NCBI RefSeq assembly: GCF_003003355.1
Contig: NZ_PVTQ01000024.1
Coordinates: 1 to 42,526, forward strand
Length of the DNA: 42,526 bases
DNA from: Donghicola tyrosinivorans
GTDB lineage: Bacteria; Pseudomonadota; Alphaproteobacteria; Rhodobacterales; Rhodobacteraceae
Direction: 5' to 3'
In this document: positions 35,477-42,340 of the stretch, in pieces
Numbering within the stretch: position 1 is the first letter of the stretch
Layout: every line of letters starts with the position of its first letter
Program-made: the position numbers and the translations under genes
Notes under the pieces: generated by a model
Told to the model about the DNA's origin: nothing
Database searches by the model: none
What the model saw: only the letters and a program-made list of their open reading frames with translations

Positions 35477-36616
35477 ATGACCTGGAACTGGACACTGCCC
35501 GACTGGCCGGATTTCCGGTATGACGCCTCCGCTCTGGAGCCGTTCGAACAGAGGTTTCTGCTGTCATCCGGAGAAATCCTCGGCGCAGTCCATCATGTCA
35601 ACCCGCCGGATCGCGAGCAACTCCGCATCGAGTTACTCAGCGACGAAGCCATGCAGACCAGCGCCATCGAAGGCGAAATCCTCGACCGGCTCAGCGTCCA
35701 GTCTTCGCTGCGGCGCCATCTGGGACTCGATCCCGACAGTTATCCCGCCAAACCGCGCGAACAGGGCGTCGCGGAAATGATGGTTGACGTCTATTCCAGC
35801 TTTGCGGAGCCGCTGAGCCACGAGACGCTGTACCGCTGGCATCGGATGCTGCTGTCCCATGACCGTCGGTTAGAGACCATCGGAGCCTACCGACAACACG
35901 CCGAATCGATGCAAATCGTTTCCGGCCGCTTTGACCGACCGACGATCCATTTCGAAGCGCCGCCTTCGGCGCAGGTCATGCCTGAGATGGAGCGATACGC
36001 GGATTGGTTCAATAGGACCGGCCCGCGGGGAGCAGAGCCGCTTCCCGCCCTGACGCGTGCCGGGCTAAGCCACCTCTATTTCGAGAGCATCCACCCATTC
36101 GAAGACGGCAACGGCCGCCTGGGCCGCGCGCTCGCTGAAAAGTCGCTGGCGCAGAACATTGGCCAGCCGACCCTAATCTCGCTCGCCTTCACCATCGAGA
36201 AAGAGCGGAAAGAGTACTACGACCAACTCAAGCGGCATCAAACGACGCTTGACGTGACGGCGTGGCTCATCTGGTTCGCAGAGATTGTCTTGAAGGCGCA
36301 GCAGATCACACTCGACCGCGTAGCGTTCTTCATCAACAAGGCACACTTTTACGATCGACATAGAGATCACCTGAACGACCGCCAGGCCAAGGCCATCGCG
36401 CGGATGTTCCGTGAAGGACCCGAAGGTTTCAGCGGCGGCCTAAGCGCGGATAACTACCTCAAGATCACCGGCACATCCCGCGCAACCGCGACCCGCGATC
36501 TACAGGACTTGGTCGAGAAGGGCGCGCTGAACCGAACTGGCGAGCTGAGACACACGCGATACTGGTTGAAGCTCGATGGAGACAAGGGTTTTTCTGCAGC
36601 AAAAACAGTACAATAA
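35477..36616 (+). CDS. Fic-domain protein with DUF4172 N-terminus
   Basis: A 379-residue protein. Residues about 1-85 form a DUF4172-type helical domain, and TSAIEG at 61-66 matches the inhibitory motif (S/T)xxxE(G/N) of Fic proteins with an N-terminal auto-inhibitory helix. The Fic motif HPFEDGNGRLGR begins at His206, so the catalytic His and the nucleotide-binding Asn/Arg are intact. Fic enzymes usually transfer AMP to target proteins. A C-terminal winged-helix-like region (GTSRATATRDLQDLVEKGAL) is present, as in many Fic regulators. No separate antitoxin gene lies beside it, in keeping with self-inhibition. It is the first intact gene of the non-metal accessory section. Confidence 0.9.
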   Translation: MTWNWTLPDWPDFRYDASALEPFEQRFLLSSGEILGAVHHVNPPDREQLRIELLSDEAMQTSAIEGEILDRLSVQSSLRRHLGLDPDSYPAKPREQGVAEMMVDVYSSFAEPLSHETLYRWHRMLLSHDRRLETIGAYRQHAESMQIVSGRFDRPTIHFEAPPSAQVMPEMERYADWFNRTGPRGAEPLPALTRAGLSHLYFESIHPFEDGNGRLGRALAEKSLAQNIGQPTLISLAFTIEKERKEYYDQLKRHQTTLDVTAWLIWFAEIVLKAQQITLDRVAFFINKAHFYDRHRDHLNDRQAKAIARMFREGPEGFSGGLSADNYLKITGTSRATATRDLQDLVEKGALNRTGELRHTRYWLKLDGDKGFSAAKTVQ

Positions 36617-36819: not shown

Positions 36820-36848
36820 TTGCATGTTGGATTTTCCAACATTATATT
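36820..36848 (+). promoter_or_regulatory. Promoter with a 19-bp palindromic operator overlapping the spacer
   Basis: TTGCAT (-35, 36820-36825) and TATATT (-10, 36843-36848) are 17 bp apart. The perfect inverted repeat ATGTTGGA-TTT-TCCAACAT (36824-36842) fills the spacer. A repressor bound here would block RNA polymerase. The XRE regulator at 37202-37576, second gene of the unit, is the obvious candidate. The start of the first gene lies 30 bp downstream. The rest of the 36617-36878 gap shows nothing recognisable. Confidence 0.7.
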
Positions 36849-36878
36849 GAGCGCAAGACAGCTATTCGGACATGGACG

Positions 36879-37205
36879 ATGCAAACGACCACCAAGACGA
36901 AACTGTTTCCGAAGCAGGATCTGGAACTTGTGCTTCGTGACGAGCTCATGCTCGCGGCGGAGGCTGAAGCCAGCATGCACGGAATTGTACTGCCAGCATC
37001 ATCTGGGGTTGCGGCAGTCGCACCTGTACCGATGGATTCTCTTGTAGTTGTGGAGCTCCTGTGCGCTGTCGAACCAGTGCTTGGCTTTACGCCGGCGGAT
37101 GCGACGGTACGCACTGGCGGATACAACTCGGTGCAAGACGCTTTGGATCACCTAATCCCGCGGCTGGAACAGCAGTGGAAAAAGAAGAATGGAGTGTCAG
37201 CATGA
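36879..37205 (+). CDS. Small protein with acyl-carrier-like DSL motif
   Basis: A 108-residue protein. MDSLVVVELLCAVEPVLGF (about 52-70) is like the phosphopantetheine-site helix of acyl carrier proteins (DSL-x-x-x-E-L), with Ser54 in the position of the modified serine. VRTGGYNSVQDALDHLIPRLE follows like helices III and IV. The N-terminal 50 residues are not recognised. No acyl-synthesis enzyme is near. The ATG at 36879 is chosen since the conserved part begins soon after; the ribosome binding site is weak. Its stop overlaps the XRE gene start by 4 bp, so it is the first gene of the unit. It could equally be a small structural protein with a chance DSL match. Confidence 0.55.
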   Translation: MQTTTKTKLFPKQDLELVLRDELMLAAEAEASMHGIVLPASSGVAAVAPVPMDSLVVVELLCAVEPVLGFTPADATVRTGGYNSVQDALDHLIPRLEQQWKKKNGVSA

Positions 37206-37576
37206 GCGTCGCGAAGCGGACGAACGACGATGACCAAGAAGCTCGGCAGGAGATGGGGGAGCGGCTGCGGGAAGCTCGTCGGTATTTGGGTCTTAAACAA
37301 GACGAGGTGGCCCAGTACCTCAAGATCCAGCGAACCGCGTTGTCAGAGATCGAGGCAGGAAACCGCCGTGTCGAGGCACTGGAGTTGAACCGGCTCGCGA
37401 AGCTGTATCGACAACCGGTCGCGTATTTCATCGGAGAAGACGATGCAGCTGGGAGTTTGCCGGTAGATGTAGCGCACCTTGCACGACAAGCCGCAGACTT
37501 GTCTCGGCAAGACCGGGATGAACTGGGGCGTTTTGCCGAGTACTTGCGCGCCCGCTCGGCCGCAACCCAGGAGTAG
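37202..37576 (+). CDS. XRE-family transcriptional regulator
   Basis: A 124-residue protein with a helix-turn-helix of the Cro/XRE type (about 17-72): GERLREARRYLGLKQDEVAQ, then LKIQRTALSEIEAGNRRVEALEL. A C-terminal tail (LPVDVAHLARQAADLSRQDRDELGRF) could mediate dimerisation or contact the following ImmA-type protein. XRE regulators paired with ImmA/IrrE peptidases are usually repressors cleaved or inactivated under stress. The ATG overlaps the stop of the preceding gene by 4 bp. The palindrome at 36824-36842 is its probable target. Confidence 0.9.
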   Translation: MSVAKRTNDDDQEARQEMGERLREARRYLGLKQDEVAQYLKIQRTALSEIEAGNRRVEALELNRLAKLYRQPVAYFIGEDDAAGSLPVDVAHLARQAADLSRQDRDELGRFAEYLRARSAATQE

Positions 37577-37579
37577 CCA

Positions 37580-38593
37580 GTGGTTTCCAATTATTCGCAG
37601 GCAGTTCGCGGCGGAGCAGCTGCGGCGGCTCGAGCACACCGGCAACTAGGCGTGCGAGAGCGGCTCGAAACTTCAGGCGGTTCAGTCAACGTTTTTGCTC
37701 TCATCAATGAACTTGACGTGCCTTTGCTCCTCCGGCCGCTCGACGGATTGCTCGGAGCATATCTTAATGTCCCATCGCAAGGGATTCTCGTCACCACTCA
37801 GCGCCCCATGAGTATCCAGCGATTTACGGCCGCACATGAGCTGGGCCATTGTCTTCTGAACCATCAGCCCAGCCTCGACGATGAAGCGAGTATCCTCCGT
37901 CGAATGCCAGCCAATTTCGATCCGGGCCACGACTATCAAGAAGTCGAAGCCGACGCTTTCGCAGTCGCGTTTCTCATGCCCAAATGGCTGCTGGCCCTAC
38001 ACATGAGGCGGCAGAATTGGACTGTGCCAGACTTTCGACGCGCAAACGTGATTTACCAGTTCAGTCTGCGACTTGGGGTGAGCTACGAGGCGTTGTGCTG
38101 GACCCTAGTTCGGTACAGGATGATTGCTGCGAAGCAGGCCCGCGAGCTTTTGCAGACAAAGCCAAAGGCGTTGAAAGAAGCGCTTCTCGCTGATCATCGA
38201 CCGACAAACTATCGTGGCGATGTATGGCTACTTACCGAACGCGACGCTGGTGCGCTGATTGATGGCAGTCGTAACGATCTATTCGTTCTCAAGCTCACCG
38301 AGCACAGCAACGGAGGATATCTCTGGAACATCCATCAATTGCAGGAGAGCGGATTCGCCATCGTCAGTAATGAAATCGAAGCGCTCGAAACAGATAGCGT
38401 CGGTGATCCTGGAATACGGCGCGTCACAGCAAGGCCTCCGGAAGAGTACCGAGGTCGCCTTGTGTTGGATGAAACACGGCCCTGGGATCACAATCAGAGT
38501 TACTCCAGACTCGAGTTGGACCTCGACCTGACAGGCCCCGAAGGTGAAGGCCTTTCACGTGCTGAGCGGCGAAGACTACTGGAGGCCGCTTGA
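37580..38593 (+). CDS. ImmA/IrrE metallo-endopeptidase fused to a chagasin-like (I42) inhibitor domain
   Basis: A 337-residue two-domain protein starting at GTG (37580), with AGGAG 6 bp upstream. Residues about 40-180 form an ImmA/IrrE peptidase with the zinc motif HELGH (86-90) and a third ligand in EVEADAFA (Glu121/Glu123). Residues about 212-318 look like the I42 chagasin fold: the loops NGGYLW (244-249; NPTTGY-like), GDPGIRR (275-281; GxGG-like) and RPW (300-302) fall in the right order and spacing. Chagasins block papain-family proteases, and such a protease is encoded by the very next gene. ImmA proteins cleave XRE repressors, encoded just upstream. A sensor/inhibitor hub is the likely role (inference). 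The fusion was not known to me. Confidence 0.85.
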   Translation: MVSNYSQAVRGGAAAAARAHRQLGVRERLETSGGSVNVFALINELDVPLLLRPLDGLLGAYLNVPSQGILVTTQRPMSIQRFTAAHELGHCLLNHQPSLDDEASILRRMPANFDPGHDYQEVEADAFAVAFLMPKWLLALHMRRQNWTVPDFRRANVIYQFSLRLGVSYEALCWTLVRYRMIAAKQARELLQTKPKALKEALLADHRPTNYRGDVWLLTERDAGALIDGSRNDLFVLKLTEHSNGGYLWNIHQLQESGFAIVSNEIEALETDSVGDPGIRRVTARPPEEYRGRLVLDETRPWDHNQSYSRLELDLDLTGPEGEGLSRAERRRLLEAA

Positions 38594-39277
38594 GTGACTG
38601 TAACGATAGACGTAGATTTACGGGCGAAGTTTGGCCCCGTCAGGGATCAAGGTGCGCGACCAACTTGCTTGGCGTTTGCTGCCAGCGACGCCCATGCTGC
38701 ATTGCGGAGCGGCTGGGATCCTCTGTCATGTGAGTTCGCCTTCTACCACGCACAAAAACGTACCGGGCGCTCTCCATATAAGGGAGCATTTCTCGACGAC
38801 ATGCTGGCCGCGCTTCGCGATACCGGCCAGCCATCGGAAAGTGGATGGCCGTACATTCCGCGTTTGCCCACGGACCTGAGGCACTATCGCCCCCCATCAT
38901 CCGTCGGAAGTTTATTTGGGCGCGAAAGTCAGAAGACCAGCCACGAAGTCGATCGAGTTTGCGATGCGTTGGATTCCAACGTCCCTGCTATTGTTCTTTC
39001 AGTCCTGACGAGAAGTTTCTTTAATCCGCCATCGGATGGAGTCATCGACCAAATCACCGGTGACGAGGTTTTTCCAACGCCGCGACATGCTGTTATCGCG
39101 GTCGGCCATGGGAAAGCGGCGACGAAACGTGTCATTCTGGTGCGAAATAGCTGGGGACCGACCTGGGGTTTGAGCGGGTATGCTTGGCTAACTGAGGATT
39201 TTCTGGCTAAGCACATGTATGCCTTGGCAATATTGACGGACGAATGTGATGTATCTGGCCATTCCGCCACAGCCTGA
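38594..39277 (+). CDS. Papain-family (C1) cysteine protease
   Basis: A 227-residue cytosolic protein with no signal peptide or long pro-segment. The papain catalytic set is intact: Gln19 (oxyanion) and Cys25 in GPVRDQGARPTCLAFA, His165 in RHAVIAVGHG and Asn185 in RNSWGPTWGLSGYAWL. Without a pro-region it must be controlled by other means, and the chagasin-like domain of the preceding gene product is an obvious choice. The GTG start directly follows the stop of that gene (no gap), with GGAGG upstream, giving coupled translation in a fixed ratio. It overlaps the next gene by 29 bp. Bacterial cytosolic papain-like proteases are rare. Confidence 0.88.
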   Translation: MTVTIDVDLRAKFGPVRDQGARPTCLAFAASDAHAALRSGWDPLSCEFAFYHAQKRTGRSPYKGAFLDDMLAALRDTGQPSESGWPYIPRLPTDLRHYRPPSSVGSLFGRESQKTSHEVDRVCDALDSNVPAIVLSVLTRSFFNPPSDGVIDQITGDEVFPTPRHAVIAVGHGKAATKRVILVRNSWGPTWGLSGYAWLTEDFLAKHMYALAILTDECDVSGHSATA

Positions 39278-40025
39278 TTGTGTAAGAACTTGGCGCGAAG
39301 CGGTTCGTTGCGTTGATAGCGAACCCGGACACGAGGCGCACAACGTCCTGATGTCAGTCGATGACCCGACCGCCGGGGCAAAGTTGAGCGACGCGAGCGT
39401 CAATGCCGTCAATGAATTCTTGCTCCGGCACGACAAATCCGTCCGGACCATCGCCAACACGATCTTTCCTGAGGCACTCTATCATAGATATGGTGCCCCG
39501 GAATTCTTCAACCGGTTTCGCGACCGAGTTCTGCCTACGGTACGACGCAACGAAAGATGGTCAGGATACTATTTCGAGCGGATGGTCGATTGGCCCGGTG
39601 CCCCGGCCGGCAATCCGCTTTGGGACGTCGTCACGCGTATGAGGGACCCGGCGGTCAGGGCAAGGAACAAATTTGAGCTTGCTCTTTTCGATCCTGCTCG
39701 CGACGTTGATCGTTCACCTTACGGCGGACAGTGCCTCAGTTTTCTCAGCTTCAAACTGTTGGCAGGGAATCCGGAGACGCTCACACTCACAGCGATCTAC
39801 CGGAACCACTACTATGTCGAAAAGCTACTCGGAAACTTGATTGGTCTCGGCCAGTTGATGTCGTTTGTGGCCACTGAAGCCGGACTCAAGATTGGATCCC
39901 TGACCGTGCTGTCGTCACATGCGACAATCGACCTGCCACGATCAGCCTGCGGGGGGACTACAACACGCGGCGAGCTTCGAGCACTCCTCGACGAGATTGA
40001 TAGTCTGTCTGAAGCCAATACCTAG
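39249..40025 (+). CDS. Thymidylate-synthase-like protein
   Basis: A 258-residue cytosolic protein whose second half resembles thymidylate synthase: GGQCLSFLSFKL has Cys162 where TS has its catalytic PCH, LTAIYRNHYYVEKL (Arg185) fits the RSxD strand, LLGNLIGLGQLMSFVATEAGL (Asn196) the substrate-binding helix, and SSHATID (His224) the HxY region. RSxD and PCH themselves are changed, so ordinary dUMP methylation is doubtful. TS relatives also make hydroxymethyl-pyrimidines in phages. The ATG at 39249 follows the GTG at 39246. Its stop and the stop of the convergent gene share CTAG (40022-40025). It ends the five-gene unit. Confidence 0.7.
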   Translation: MYLAIPPQPDCVRTWREAVRCVDSEPGHEAHNVLMSVDDPTAGAKLSDASVNAVNEFLLRHDKSVRTIANTIFPEALYHRYGAPEFFNRFRDRVLPTVRRNERWSGYYFERMVDWPGAPAGNPLWDVVTRMRDPAVRARNKFELALFDPARDVDRSPYGGQCLSFLSFKLLAGNPETLTLTAIYRNHYYVEKLLGNLIGLGQLMSFVATEAGLKIGSLTVLSSHATIDLPRSACGGTTTRGELRALLDEIDSLSEANT

Positions 40026-40708
40026 GCAAACTCAGCGAAAGGCAGAGTTGCCGTTTCCGGTCGCCGGGCCGAACTTGAGAGATTGTATATTGCCTCGATG
40101 CCAGCAATGAACTCGCTTTGCCCACCATAGCTCGGATGGCGGACCTGAGAGACAGGAAGGTCCAAATCTGCTAGAGCTTCTCCCGCATCACGCCCAATTG
40201 CCACCAAGCGTTTAGGTTGAAGCATCTCCAGGAGTGCCAACAGAAATGGCCAAGTCGCCGAACGCTCCGTTTTGCGATGTGAGCGGTTGGTCATGGGATC
40301 ATCTGGCGCGTGCGGGTGAAGCGGAAACACATTCCACAGCATTACTGGCCTGCCAATTGACGAAAGAAGCTGCCAAGTGACTGTCGCCGTACGTTCGGCA
40401 AGTGCCGGTCCTGTCGTAGCCCGAGCAAGGGTTATTCCGCCAAACAGATGTTCAGCTTCCGTGAGATGTGCTTCGTCGGTCAAGGGTACTCCGGTACGCC
40501 GTCCCCCCCGGTACCCGAGGTCCCTTGCTATCCAGATAGTATCAGCACGGGCATTCATCGCGGCCTCAAGACACCGCTTCAGGTTCTCGCGTCGAGCGCG
40601 TGCAGCATCGACGGTATCGTGAATTGGGCAGATGTCGCTGTACGGATTAAAGGTGTTCACCAAATCTACAGCGGCAAGTTCTTCGACAAAGGATTCTGGA
40701 GTGTTCAT
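40022..40708 (-). CDS. Uracil-DNA-glycosylase-superfamily protein
   Basis: A 228-residue protein of the UDG fold: ARDLGYRGGRRTGVPLTDE (about 71-89) corresponds to the catalytic-loop region, WNVFPLHPH (about 136-144) to the uracil-binding strand, and RHPSYGGQ (about 195-202) to the His-Pro-Ser DNA-intercalating motif. The usual GxDPG water-activating motif is replaced, as in SMUG2-like or family-4-like relatives, so the excised base may differ from uracil. The ATG overlaps the stop of the MazG-like gene by 4 bp, and the two are co-translated. Its stop codon lies on the same CTAG as that of the TS-like gene. Confidence 0.75.
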   Translation of the reverse strand: MNTPESFVEELAAVDLVNTFNPYSDICPIHDTVDAARARRENLKRCLEAAMNARADTIWIARDLGYRGGRRTGVPLTDEAHLTEAEHLFGGITLARATTGPALAERTATVTWQLLSSIGRPVMLWNVFPLHPHAPDDPMTNRSHRKTERSATWPFLLALLEMLQPKRLVAIGRDAGEALADLDLPVSQVRHPSYGGQSEFIAGIEAIYNLSSSARRPETATLPFAEFA

Positions 40709-41880
40709 GTCAACGGCTCGATGTTTAGCCGCCGCTCTACGGCATCTAGGATAACAGTTCCACGGCGATGTTCGCGCAGATAGCGAAATGCTGCGTATCC
40801 TTGCAGGATGGCCTCTTCCCACAGCCAGGTCGGACAGTTCTCGGCTTCGTAGCCGCGAACGAACTGTCTGACCTGCTTCAATAGGTCGAACGGCAACTCC
40901 CCGGCCTTCAGGTCTTGAAAGAAATCCATCTCCATGGCCTGTCCGAAAATCCAGGTCGCGATCCCCTCCTCGATCAATGCGGCGCGGGCTCCGTCTTGGG
41001 CCTCGTCGATCTTTGGCCGACTCTTGCGTTTCAACCGAAAAAGGGAACGAGTGACTGGCGACCAGCCAAGGATAGCGACGTAGGCATAATGGAAGACATC
41101 ATGGAACCTGTAGTCATCCGGTGTCATGGCGTTGTCCGTCAGTCGATCCCCGATGTTGAGGCCGTTGCAGGTCTGGAAGACGTAGCGTTTGCCACCAACC
41201 TCCCGTTCAAATATGTTGATCTTGAGGTTCCTGGGCAGCTGTTCTTCCGGGGGCAAGTCTGCATCGAAGAAGGGCGGGTATGCCTTCTGGATGGGCCATC
41301 GGTCTGTCGTCTTCGCTCGATTCTTGATGGCCGCAGCTTCCAGTGTGACGCCCGCTTCATTGGCCGCGCGAATGAGTATCTCGAGAATCGCGACAAGTCG
41401 GGGTCCGAGACGTCGGCGATCCCTTTGGAGCTCGTTGTTCGATTGATCGGCCATAAGAAGCCCGGTTGCAGCCGCCAACTCGATGAGGGTTGCTTCAAAG
41501 GCCGGTGACGGTGACTGTCCAGCGGTCAGTACAGACGGCTGCAAAGCCTCAAAGGTGAGCGGCTCTCCGGTTGCGGATAGCCAGTTCTCGCTATCGCTGG
41601 CAAGGTTGGTGACAATATCGGCGAACGAGATTTCTGCCCTAGCAGCAACCAGGTTGAAGTACCAAAGTACGTCGCCGAGTTCTTCTGTAACCGCAGCCGC
41701 GTAGGCGCGATAGGAGATCGGGTCTCTCTGCTTCTTCTTCACTTCAGAGAGAAGGCTCCCGACCTCTCCAAAGAGGCCAAGCAAAGGGAAGTTGAGGGAA
41801 TCTGCGTCCCGCCGAAGGTCCGTCGCAAGCGCATCCGCTGAGAATTCCTGCACTGACAATGGAATGAAATCGTCTGACAT
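40705..41880 (-). CDS. MazG-like nucleotide pyrophosphohydrolase with extra C-terminal domain
   Basis: A 391-residue protein. The N-terminal 100 residues are a MazG-type all-alpha NTP pyrophosphatase: LFGEVGSLLSEVKKKQRD (Glu39, Glu46) and EELGDVLWYF (Glu67, Asp70). The second motif is canonical, the first partly altered. Residues about 225-390 form a second domain with RFHDVFHYAYVAILGW (HDxxH) and EEGIATWIFGQ, which looks metal-binding but is not assigned. MazG enzymes remove abnormal nucleotides. GGAGGA precedes the ATG. The downstream UDG-like partner makes a nucleotide-hygiene pair. No feature is seen between this gene and the WGR gene (41881-42067). Confidence 0.8.
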   Translation of the reverse strand: MSDDFIPLSVQEFSADALATDLRRDADSLNFPLLGLFGEVGSLLSEVKKKQRDPISYRAYAAAVTEELGDVLWYFNLVAARAEISFADIVTNLASDSENWLSATGEPLTFEALQPSVLTAGQSPSPAFEATLIELAAATGLLMADQSNNELQRDRRRLGPRLVAILEILIRAANEAGVTLEAAAIKNRAKTTDRWPIQKAYPPFFDADLPPEEQLPRNLKINIFEREVGGKRYVFQTCNGLNIGDRLTDNAMTPDDYRFHDVFHYAYVAILGWSPVTRSLFRLKRKSRPKIDEAQDGARAALIEEGIATWIFGQAMEMDFFQDLKAGELPFDLLKQVRQFVRGYEAENCPTWLWEEAILQGYAAFRYLREHRRGTVILDAVERRLNIEPLT

Positions 41881-42067: not shown

Positions 42068-42340
42068 TCACATCTTGGATGACGACTGGTACCCCCGCCG
42101 CTTCTTCGTCGCCGACAGCTTCATCAAAGCGTTCACCGCCCTGCCCTCGTCATCTTGTTGCTCGACCAGCATCTGGCCACGGTAGCCGATCCGACCCCAT
42201 TCCCGCACCAAGCTCACGCCGCCGAAGAGGTCCGGCTGAACGCTCATCCTGTAGAACCGCCGCATGTTGAGAGACGGGTCGATCCGCTTGAGATCGACCG
42301 TCGTCGGGAACACTTCCATTTGCTGCGATATGTCGAACAT
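42068..42340 (-). CDS. WGR-domain protein
   Basis: A 90-residue protein that is almost all WGR domain: MRRFYRMSVQPDLFGG followed by VREWGRIGYRGQMLVE (about 26-60), with the Trp-Gly-Arg motif. WGR domains bind DNA or RNA ends in PARPs and are also found alone in plasmid-encoded proteins of alphaproteobacteria. The C-terminus is basic (TKKRRGYQSSSK). It lies between the MazG-like gene and an insertion-sequence end, so it may be part of the mobile DNA here. Confidence 0.85.
   Translation of the reverse strand: MFDISQQMEVFPTTVDLKRIDPSLNMRRFYRMSVQPDLFGGVSLVREWGRIGYRGQMLVEQQDDEGRAVNALMKLSATKKRRGYQSSSKM

Follow-up and report, generated by a model that had tools for sequence, protein, structure and literature searches.

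Organization of the locus

The window analyzed here, a 42,526-nucleotide stretch of Donghicola tyrosinivorans DNA (contig NZ_PVTQ01000024.1), carries on its forward strand five overlapping or abutting genes encoding an acyl carrier protein (ACP)-like protein, an XRE repressor, an ImmA/IrrE metalloprotease fused to a chagasin-family I42 domain, a papain-family (C1) cysteine protease and a thymidylate synthase (TS)-superfamily protein. All of these open reading frames (ORFs) had been reported in an initial annotation and were confirmed, and the observation of the gene set was judged to be real. The region delimited in that annotation (36820-40025) contains the genes, but its left edge takes in a palindrome at 36824-36842 and is not the likely coding start.

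The ACP-like carrier protein (36879-37205) has a DSL motif with the serine Ser54. The CapH-like XRE repressor (37202-37576) contains a helix-turn-helix (HTH) domain at approximately residues 17-76 (Pfam HTH_31, 2e-9), and in PADLOC it matched capH at 2.4e-12 and, as the top match, RmrA at 3.4e-14. The third gene (37580-38593) had been described as an ImmA-chagasin fusion, and Pfam found both halves, M78 (ImmA) at residues 76-174 (6e-11) and I42 at residues 231-307 (1e-7, 32.6 bits with a cut-off of 27.2), the latter encoded by positions 38270-38500. The ImmA part matched PADLOC capP at 6.5e-16, and a profile of the fusion family matched amoebiasin-2 (8e-11), CapP (1.6e-6) and IrrE (6e-6) among PDB sequences; the C-terminal domain is thus I42-like by profile, both in Pfam and through the PDB match to amoebiasin-2. 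The papain-like protease (38594-39277) has no pro-segment and matched Pfam C1 at 2.1e-11, and Foldseek matched it to xylellain (2.5e-11) and cathepsin S. The residues named for it earlier (Gln19, Cys25, His165 and Asn185) were correct and are conserved across the loci described below, and both this Gln-Cys-His-Asn set and, in the predicted model, the papain fold are present. When ImmA, I42 and C1 were modeled as one fused chain, papain-family proteases, with xylellain and cathepsin S, stood on top of the 50 structural matches listed. The TS-like protein is encoded at 39249-40025, with a GTG at 39246 as an alternative start, from which its nucleophile Cys163 is numbered.

Distribution and linkage of the module

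The combination of ACP, XRE, ImmA-I42, C1 and TS-like genes is referred to here as the module, and was found in 53 loci (designated by L and a number), eight from plasmids and 45 from a genome scan. For the scan, a C1 alignment was compared with a collection of the genomes of 84,980 species and the best 80 of 448 loci were kept; by profiles, the module was present in 45 of the 80, and the other 35 had C1 without the module. Relatives of the C1 protease were encoded on 17 plasmid records, and of the nine examined, eight, one of them haloarchaeal and another from Burkholderia glumae, carried the module, and one from Deinococcus did not. Record titles place the module in six bacterial phyla (Pseudomonadota, Acidobacteriota, Planctomycetota, Actinomycetota, Balneolota and Dormibacterota) and one haloarchaeon (Haloarcula), although many loci outside Pseudomonadota come from metagenome bins, for which misassignment is possible. 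The module is rare and patchy, with a strong match to the fusion protein in 6 of 292 genomes of the order, the window's own included, and the TS family in 7 of 385 genomes of the class.

C1, ImmA and XRE were detected by profiles in all 53 loci, and TS in 51 (all except L067 and L070, the latter cut by its contig). ACP was detected by profile in 48, and in four more as a small nearby ACP-like ORF; in L044 this position is cut by the contig edge. The order XRE, ImmA-I42, C1, TS is kept in 49 of the 51 loci with a TS match, and with start codons called by script, 20 of 45 loci show a 4-base overlap between ImmA and C1. The genes are thus linked across phyla; an unrelated C-terminal fold and missing linkage, the two outcomes by which the initial annotation would have been refuted, were both not observed. 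Chance adjacency was rejected, the genes being found together in 53 loci and the module being absent from 36 control C1 loci. A generic secreted C1 protease was rejected as well, the 35 other genome-scan loci having C1 without ImmA or TS. Phage origin was also considered and rejected: at E ≤1e-3, the 80 best viral C1 loci contained no ImmA or I42 and a single weak TS match (26 bits), and the TS-like protein had no match in the phage collection at the same threshold.

Key residues are well kept. In C1, Gln and Cys are present in 53/53 loci and His and Asn in 52/52 readable ones (L070 is truncated). HExxH and the third Glu of ImmA are present in 53/53, and in all 53 an HTH repressor adjoins an ImmA-type metalloprotease with intact HExxH. 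Loop L2 of I42 has its Gly and Trp in 53/53, and the residues of the RPW motif (L6) are kept in 42 (R), 48 (P) and 51 (W) of the 53 loci; in the window the GxGG motif (L4) reads GDPG. Ser54 of ACP is found in 52/52, the ORF of L074 lacking the preceding Asp of the motif, and the TS-like protein has Cys163 in 51/51 and Arg186 and Asn197 in 50/50 readable loci. Some copies seem to be damaged, with split frames for UDG in L073 and MazG in L065, two genes of the cassette described below, and for TS in three loci.

The I42 domain and the C1 protease as a probable pair

A search independent of C1, made with the TS family in the 385 genomes of the class, led to eight places. At six of these ImmA-I42 and C1 are neighbors, a seventh holds a TS fragment without either, and the last (L199/L216) has XRE, ImmA, TS, a 5-hydroxymethyldeoxyuridine (5-hmdU) kinase-type gene (HMUDK) and MazG, with C1 absent. 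The C1-less ImmA had 14 plasmid matches, and the six examined, from Sinorhizobium, Rhizobium, two cyanobacteria and two Streptomyces, were all C1-less clusters; two further C1-less loci were obtained with the Sinorhizobium ImmA as query against 398 genomes of the phylum. The nine C1-less sister loci (L216-L222, L225 and L226) all have the ImmA-TS-HMUDK-MazG core, with an ACP-like ORF bearing the serine in 8/9 and a recognized XRE in 8/9, L226 ending there at a contig edge. No C1 match was found within the stretches examined, and I42 was detected in none of their ImmA proteins, either by a module-specific hidden Markov model (0/9 at E ≤1) or by Pfam (0/7). Beside C1, Pfam detected I42 in 52/54 ImmA proteins, window included, and the module-specific profile, which was built from the same proteins, detected it in 53/53.

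In an ImmA-domain tree of 57 rows (near-duplicates L033, L034, L036, L049, L057 and L070 excluded, L074 and L076 forming long branches), the C1-less label needs two changes, two are forced by well-supported branches, and a history with one change occurred in 0/200 bootstraps. I42 and C1 were gained or lost jointly at least twice, and I42 is therefore probably a partner, most simply an inhibitor, of the C1 protease. This joint presence and absence (52/54 versus 0/9, with the tree) is the strongest evidence for the partnership and supports the pairing first suggested from the window, although p values for this contrast and for the gene counts in module loci do not allow for relatedness; that the two are functional partners is regarded as quite likely. 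Since the core exists in C1-less loci, I42 and C1 appear as an add-on to an ACP-XRE-ImmA-TS-HMUDK-MazG core.

The TS-like protein, the carrier protein and the nucleotide cassette

The TS-like protein of the window gave only a partial NCBIfam TS match (5.2e-7), neither it nor the ACP-like protein of the window had a Pfam match, and 8 of 37 members of the TS-like family matched Pfam TS at E ≤0.1 (best 2e-4). Because a profile of the family had no match among PDB sequences at E ≤1, fold comparison was used. The predicted model, with a predicted local distance difference test score (pLDDT) of 92.0 and a predicted template modeling score (pTM) of 0.92, matched TS-superfamily structures first, with modest TM-scores of about 0.5-0.6, and its first four matches include the phage dCMP hydroxylase AfhB, L. 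casei TS with dUMP, and MilA. Both marks of the TS superfamily, the fold (as predicted) and the nucleophilic Cys (51/51), are thus present; a dTMP-forming TS is not indicated, the methanogen-type equivalog reaching 29.4 bits with a cut-off of 174.55. By spacing, His225 is presumably the dUMP-site His, and by its distance from the invariant Arg, the Asn conserved in 50/50 readable loci is taken to be at the uracil-selecting position of TS. The suggestion in the initial annotation that the TS-like protein reads the signal releasing the protease found no support: the kept nucleophile, the two substrate-site residues and the nucleotide-modification neighbors make an enzyme more likely than a mere sensor.

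In the window, a divergent pair of genes at 40022-41880, outside the description given in the initial annotation, adjoins the five-gene set. It encodes on the reverse strand a uracil-DNA glycosylase (UDG)-superfamily protein (40022-40708, alternative ORF start 40822; Pfam PF03167, 2.5e-5) and a MazG pyrophosphohydrolase with a MazG_C domain (40705-41880; PF18722, 2.7e-82). MazG is present in 43/53 and UDG in 31/53 module loci, and 50/53 have MazG-MazG_C or HMUDK (of the other three, L041 and L070 are truncated at contig ends, and L067 lacks both). UDG and HMUDK (17/53) do not co-occur in any of the 53 loci, and L041, L045, L060, L067 and L070 contain neither. Neighbors confirmed by Pfam among the proteins scanned are HMUDK_hel, dCTP-deaminase-like, thymidylate-kinase-like and phosphopantetheinyl transferase (PPTase) proteins. 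Genes for PPTase occur in 18/53 module loci, including 15 of the 17 with HMUDK, compared with 0/36 controls, where the queries for PPTase, HMUDK and similar proteins were drawn from module loci, those for PPTase from 8 of the 18.

The carrier identity of the ACP-like family is consistent with 56 weakly matched PDB sequences (best E 0.003), which were carrier proteins or carrier-type complex I subunits except for one nodulation protein F and one uncharacterized protein. In L074 (2457-3785) a single chain combines the TS-like protein with an AcpS phosphopantetheinyl transferase domain and thereby links the two activities. This fusion and the PPTase neighbors suggest that the TS-like enzyme and the carrier protein belong to one pathway, and point to their acting together on a deoxyuridine-type substrate.

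The palindrome before the operon

The palindrome ATGTTGGAtttTCCAACAT (36824-36842, forward strand) fits TGTnnGAnnnTCnnACA, with its core at 36825-36841, lies 36 bases upstream of the ACP start and is the sole match in the window at ≤1 mismatch. The core TGTnnGAnnnTCnnACA was found exactly upstream of ACP in 34 module loci and in L074, directly before its ACP-like ORF, and had no further exact match in the remaining 887 kb of the module loci or in the controls (516 kb; 1.4 Mb together). The groups with exact copies include Alphaproteobacteria, Betaproteobacteria, Acidobacteria and Amycolatopsis. Of the 18 module loci (of 53) without an exact copy, 10 have a copy with one mismatch; among the nine C1-less loci no exact copy was seen, and a one-mismatch copy precedes ACP in L219, L221, L222 and L225. 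The palindrome is treated here as a candidate operator, which XRE would bind.

Neighboring genes

A Fic protein with DUF4172 (SoFic-like) is encoded directly upstream of the module in the window (35477-36616, forward strand), and of the loci compared, L032 and L034 alone have a member of this Fic protein cluster close to the module. The window further contains, upstream of the MazG gene, a 90-residue ORF (42068-42340, reverse strand) that, judged by eye, we take to resemble a WGR-type domain. According to deposited annotation, caspase-family genes adjoin the module on two rhizobial plasmids (L030:2635-5654 and L031:3352-5274), and Shedu and AbiEii-type genes adjoin it in L028:4402-5562 and L029:4680-5730. 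Two families, of 445 residues (L059:6791-8125) and 198 residues (L059:11464-12057), adjoin HMUDK-type modules; the members scanned (L059; L030:9398-10045) had no Pfam match at 0.01, and the 198-residue family matches phrog_19333, of unknown function. At 1e-10, neighbors of the module matched 108 PADLOC families and neighbors in controls 33 (130 proteins each, of 270 and 186), which suggests a defense setting, although these are tallies of families with controls unmatched by taxon and with six near-duplicate loci and proteins >800 aa excluded, and they are not relied on.

Proposed mechanism and alternative explanations

The arrangement can be read as a two-layer proteolytic switch over a uracil-nucleotide modification cassette, partly plasmid-borne, and this picture as a whole is given a probability of roughly 0.5. 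In the resting state XRE would occupy the palindrome before the first gene and keep the operon low. The ImmA domain would act as a CapP/IrrE-like protease that cleaves XRE on a trigger, by analogy single-stranded DNA (ssDNA) or DNA damage, and this cleavage is considered likely. The C-terminal chagasin-type I42 would hold the papain-like protease, the product of the following gene, and through the 4-base overlap seen in 20/45 loci the inhibitor would be made first and be coupled to the protease. When the switch fires, the operon would be induced and the cysteine protease would escape inhibition and cut its target, being released by a change of occupancy on ImmA activation, by self-cleavage or by simple excess. 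The TS-like enzyme, the carrier protein, the UDG-like or 5-hmdU-kinase-like enzyme and MazG would act on deoxyuridine-type nucleotides or bases. The more specific proposal, that the metalloprotease which cleaves the repressor also serves as a built-in inhibitor of a papain-type executioner, such that one signal induces the operon and frees the executioner, with coupled ACP-dependent deoxyuridine chemistry by the TS-like enzyme that is finished by a UDG-like or hmdU-kinase-like enzyme, is offered tentatively and at somewhat less than even odds. For a role in defense or mobile-element conflict the odds are judged to be even.

Several observations weigh against this picture. The core also occurs without I42 and C1, and L067 has ACP, XRE, ImmA-I42 and C1 without a TS match. 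Only 29 of 50 readable loci retain His225 of the TS-like protein, and the TS frame is split in 3/51 (L030, L044 and L065). With one mismatch allowed, the palindrome also has 12 matches at other places in module loci and 8 in controls. The one-chain ImmA-I42-C1 model, from an alignment of 28 rows taken from MAFFT settings and 150 random subsets and chosen by row placement alone, has each domain folded (pLDDT 90.8) with a pTM of 0.64, a value that speaks neither for nor against docking of I42 in the protease cleft. The window has HSNGG in place of the chagasin loop NPTTG (L2), with both threonines lost. According to PMC2607524, chagasin T31A/T32A is about 140-fold weaker on cruzipain and not weakened on cathepsin L, deletion of both T31 and T32 harms inhibition of both enzymes, and with W93A inhibition falls about 100-fold for cathepsin L and about 4-fold for cruzipain. 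HSNGG, at the length of NPTTG, is accordingly compatible with inhibition or with its absence.

The lost threonines also favor a reading in which I42 is a docking domain rather than an inhibitor and brings C1 to ImmA for sequential cleavage of the repressor, ACP or the TS-like protein. IrrE and CapP have a different C-terminal domain at the I42 position, so that I42 may be regulatory, which is counted for this reading. However, the loop has kept its length, L2 its Gly and Trp, and RPW most of its residues, and chagasin without the T31/T32 side chains is reported in PMC2607524 to remain tight on cathepsin L; docking without inhibition is considered unlikely. A toxin-antitoxin system is judged to be improbable to a similar degree. 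Here C1 would act as a toxic protease in the cytosol, with the I42 half as its antitoxin, serving mobile-element maintenance or abortive infection, with the nucleotide genes as sensor. Such a system fits with an inhibitor gene that precedes the protease gene, often with the 4-base overlap, with the joint coming and going of I42 and C1, and with C1 relatives on 17 plasmid records, but no readable locus has lost the TS-like nucleophile or the ACP serine, which is more than a passive sensor would require, and the core persists without the I42-C1 pair.

Papain-type Cys-His pairs are capable of acyl transfer, and C1 might be an acyl or aminoacyl transferase or hydrolase, not a peptidase, working on an ACP thioester in base hypermodification and gated by I42. 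An ACP-like ORF with the carrier serine in 52/53 loci (the other being cut by a contig edge) and PPTase in 18/53 agree with this, but C1 retains all of the papain residues, Gln and Asn among them, the core with ACP and TS is also found in C1-less loci, and no acyl-activating enzyme was seen among the accessory proteins scanned with Pfam, which are a subset of the neighbors. This is judged to be the least likely of the alternatives, by a clear step. The module is real and conserved, and we prefer to read it as a switch of the CapH/CapP kind, with a chagasin-papain layer added, over a nucleotide cassette of the ACP/TS-like type.

Relation to known systems and significance

The module resembles CapH/CapP and DdrO/PprI(IrrE) in having an XRE protein and an ImmA-type protease near the head of the operon, both halves matching by sequence, and a palindrome before the first gene. 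According to PMC10904395 and PMC13373217, CapP/PprI is activated by ssDNA and the repressor is cut. The module differs from these systems in that its protease is fused to I42 and an ACP gene precedes the repressor. As in the chagasin or inhibitor of cysteine protease (ICP)-papain pairs (chagasin-cruzipain, amoebiasins), an I42 domain with a mostly kept RPW loop stands beside C1, but in the module I42 is fused to a metalloprotease, both partners lie in one operon, no signal or pro-segment was seen, and the window has HSNGG for NPTTG.

The TS-like protein shares its fold and nucleophilic Cys with the CMP hydroxymethylase MilA, the dCMP hydroxylase AfhB and classical ThyA, but the identity is 11-18% among the 50 matches listed. 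With the candidates of DefensePredictor (PMC13092281), the module has TS, 5-hmdU kinase, MazG, MazG-C and UDG domains in common. In that paper, TS and 5-hmdU kinase are among the domains of validated systems, MazG and MazG-C are among those of predicted systems, and UDG is given in the legend on predicted systems, whereas ImmA, the cysteine protease and the acyl carrier are unmatched in the main text; these domains provide a precedent for the nucleotide half of the module. A search of the literature for the module found no description, although it may have been mentioned earlier.

The nine C1-less sister loci, the two flavors of the module and the conserved palindrome make the proposed switch directly testable. 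Chagasin-papain pairs are known to us mainly from parasites and lysosomal-type proteases, and if the proposal is true, bacteria and archaea would also use such a pair within their cells, as a switch gated by a signal. Protease-based control of the CapH/CapP-like kind would then be linked to the chemistry of nucleotide modification, and also to a dedicated carrier protein, a component that to our knowledge no described defense system uses.

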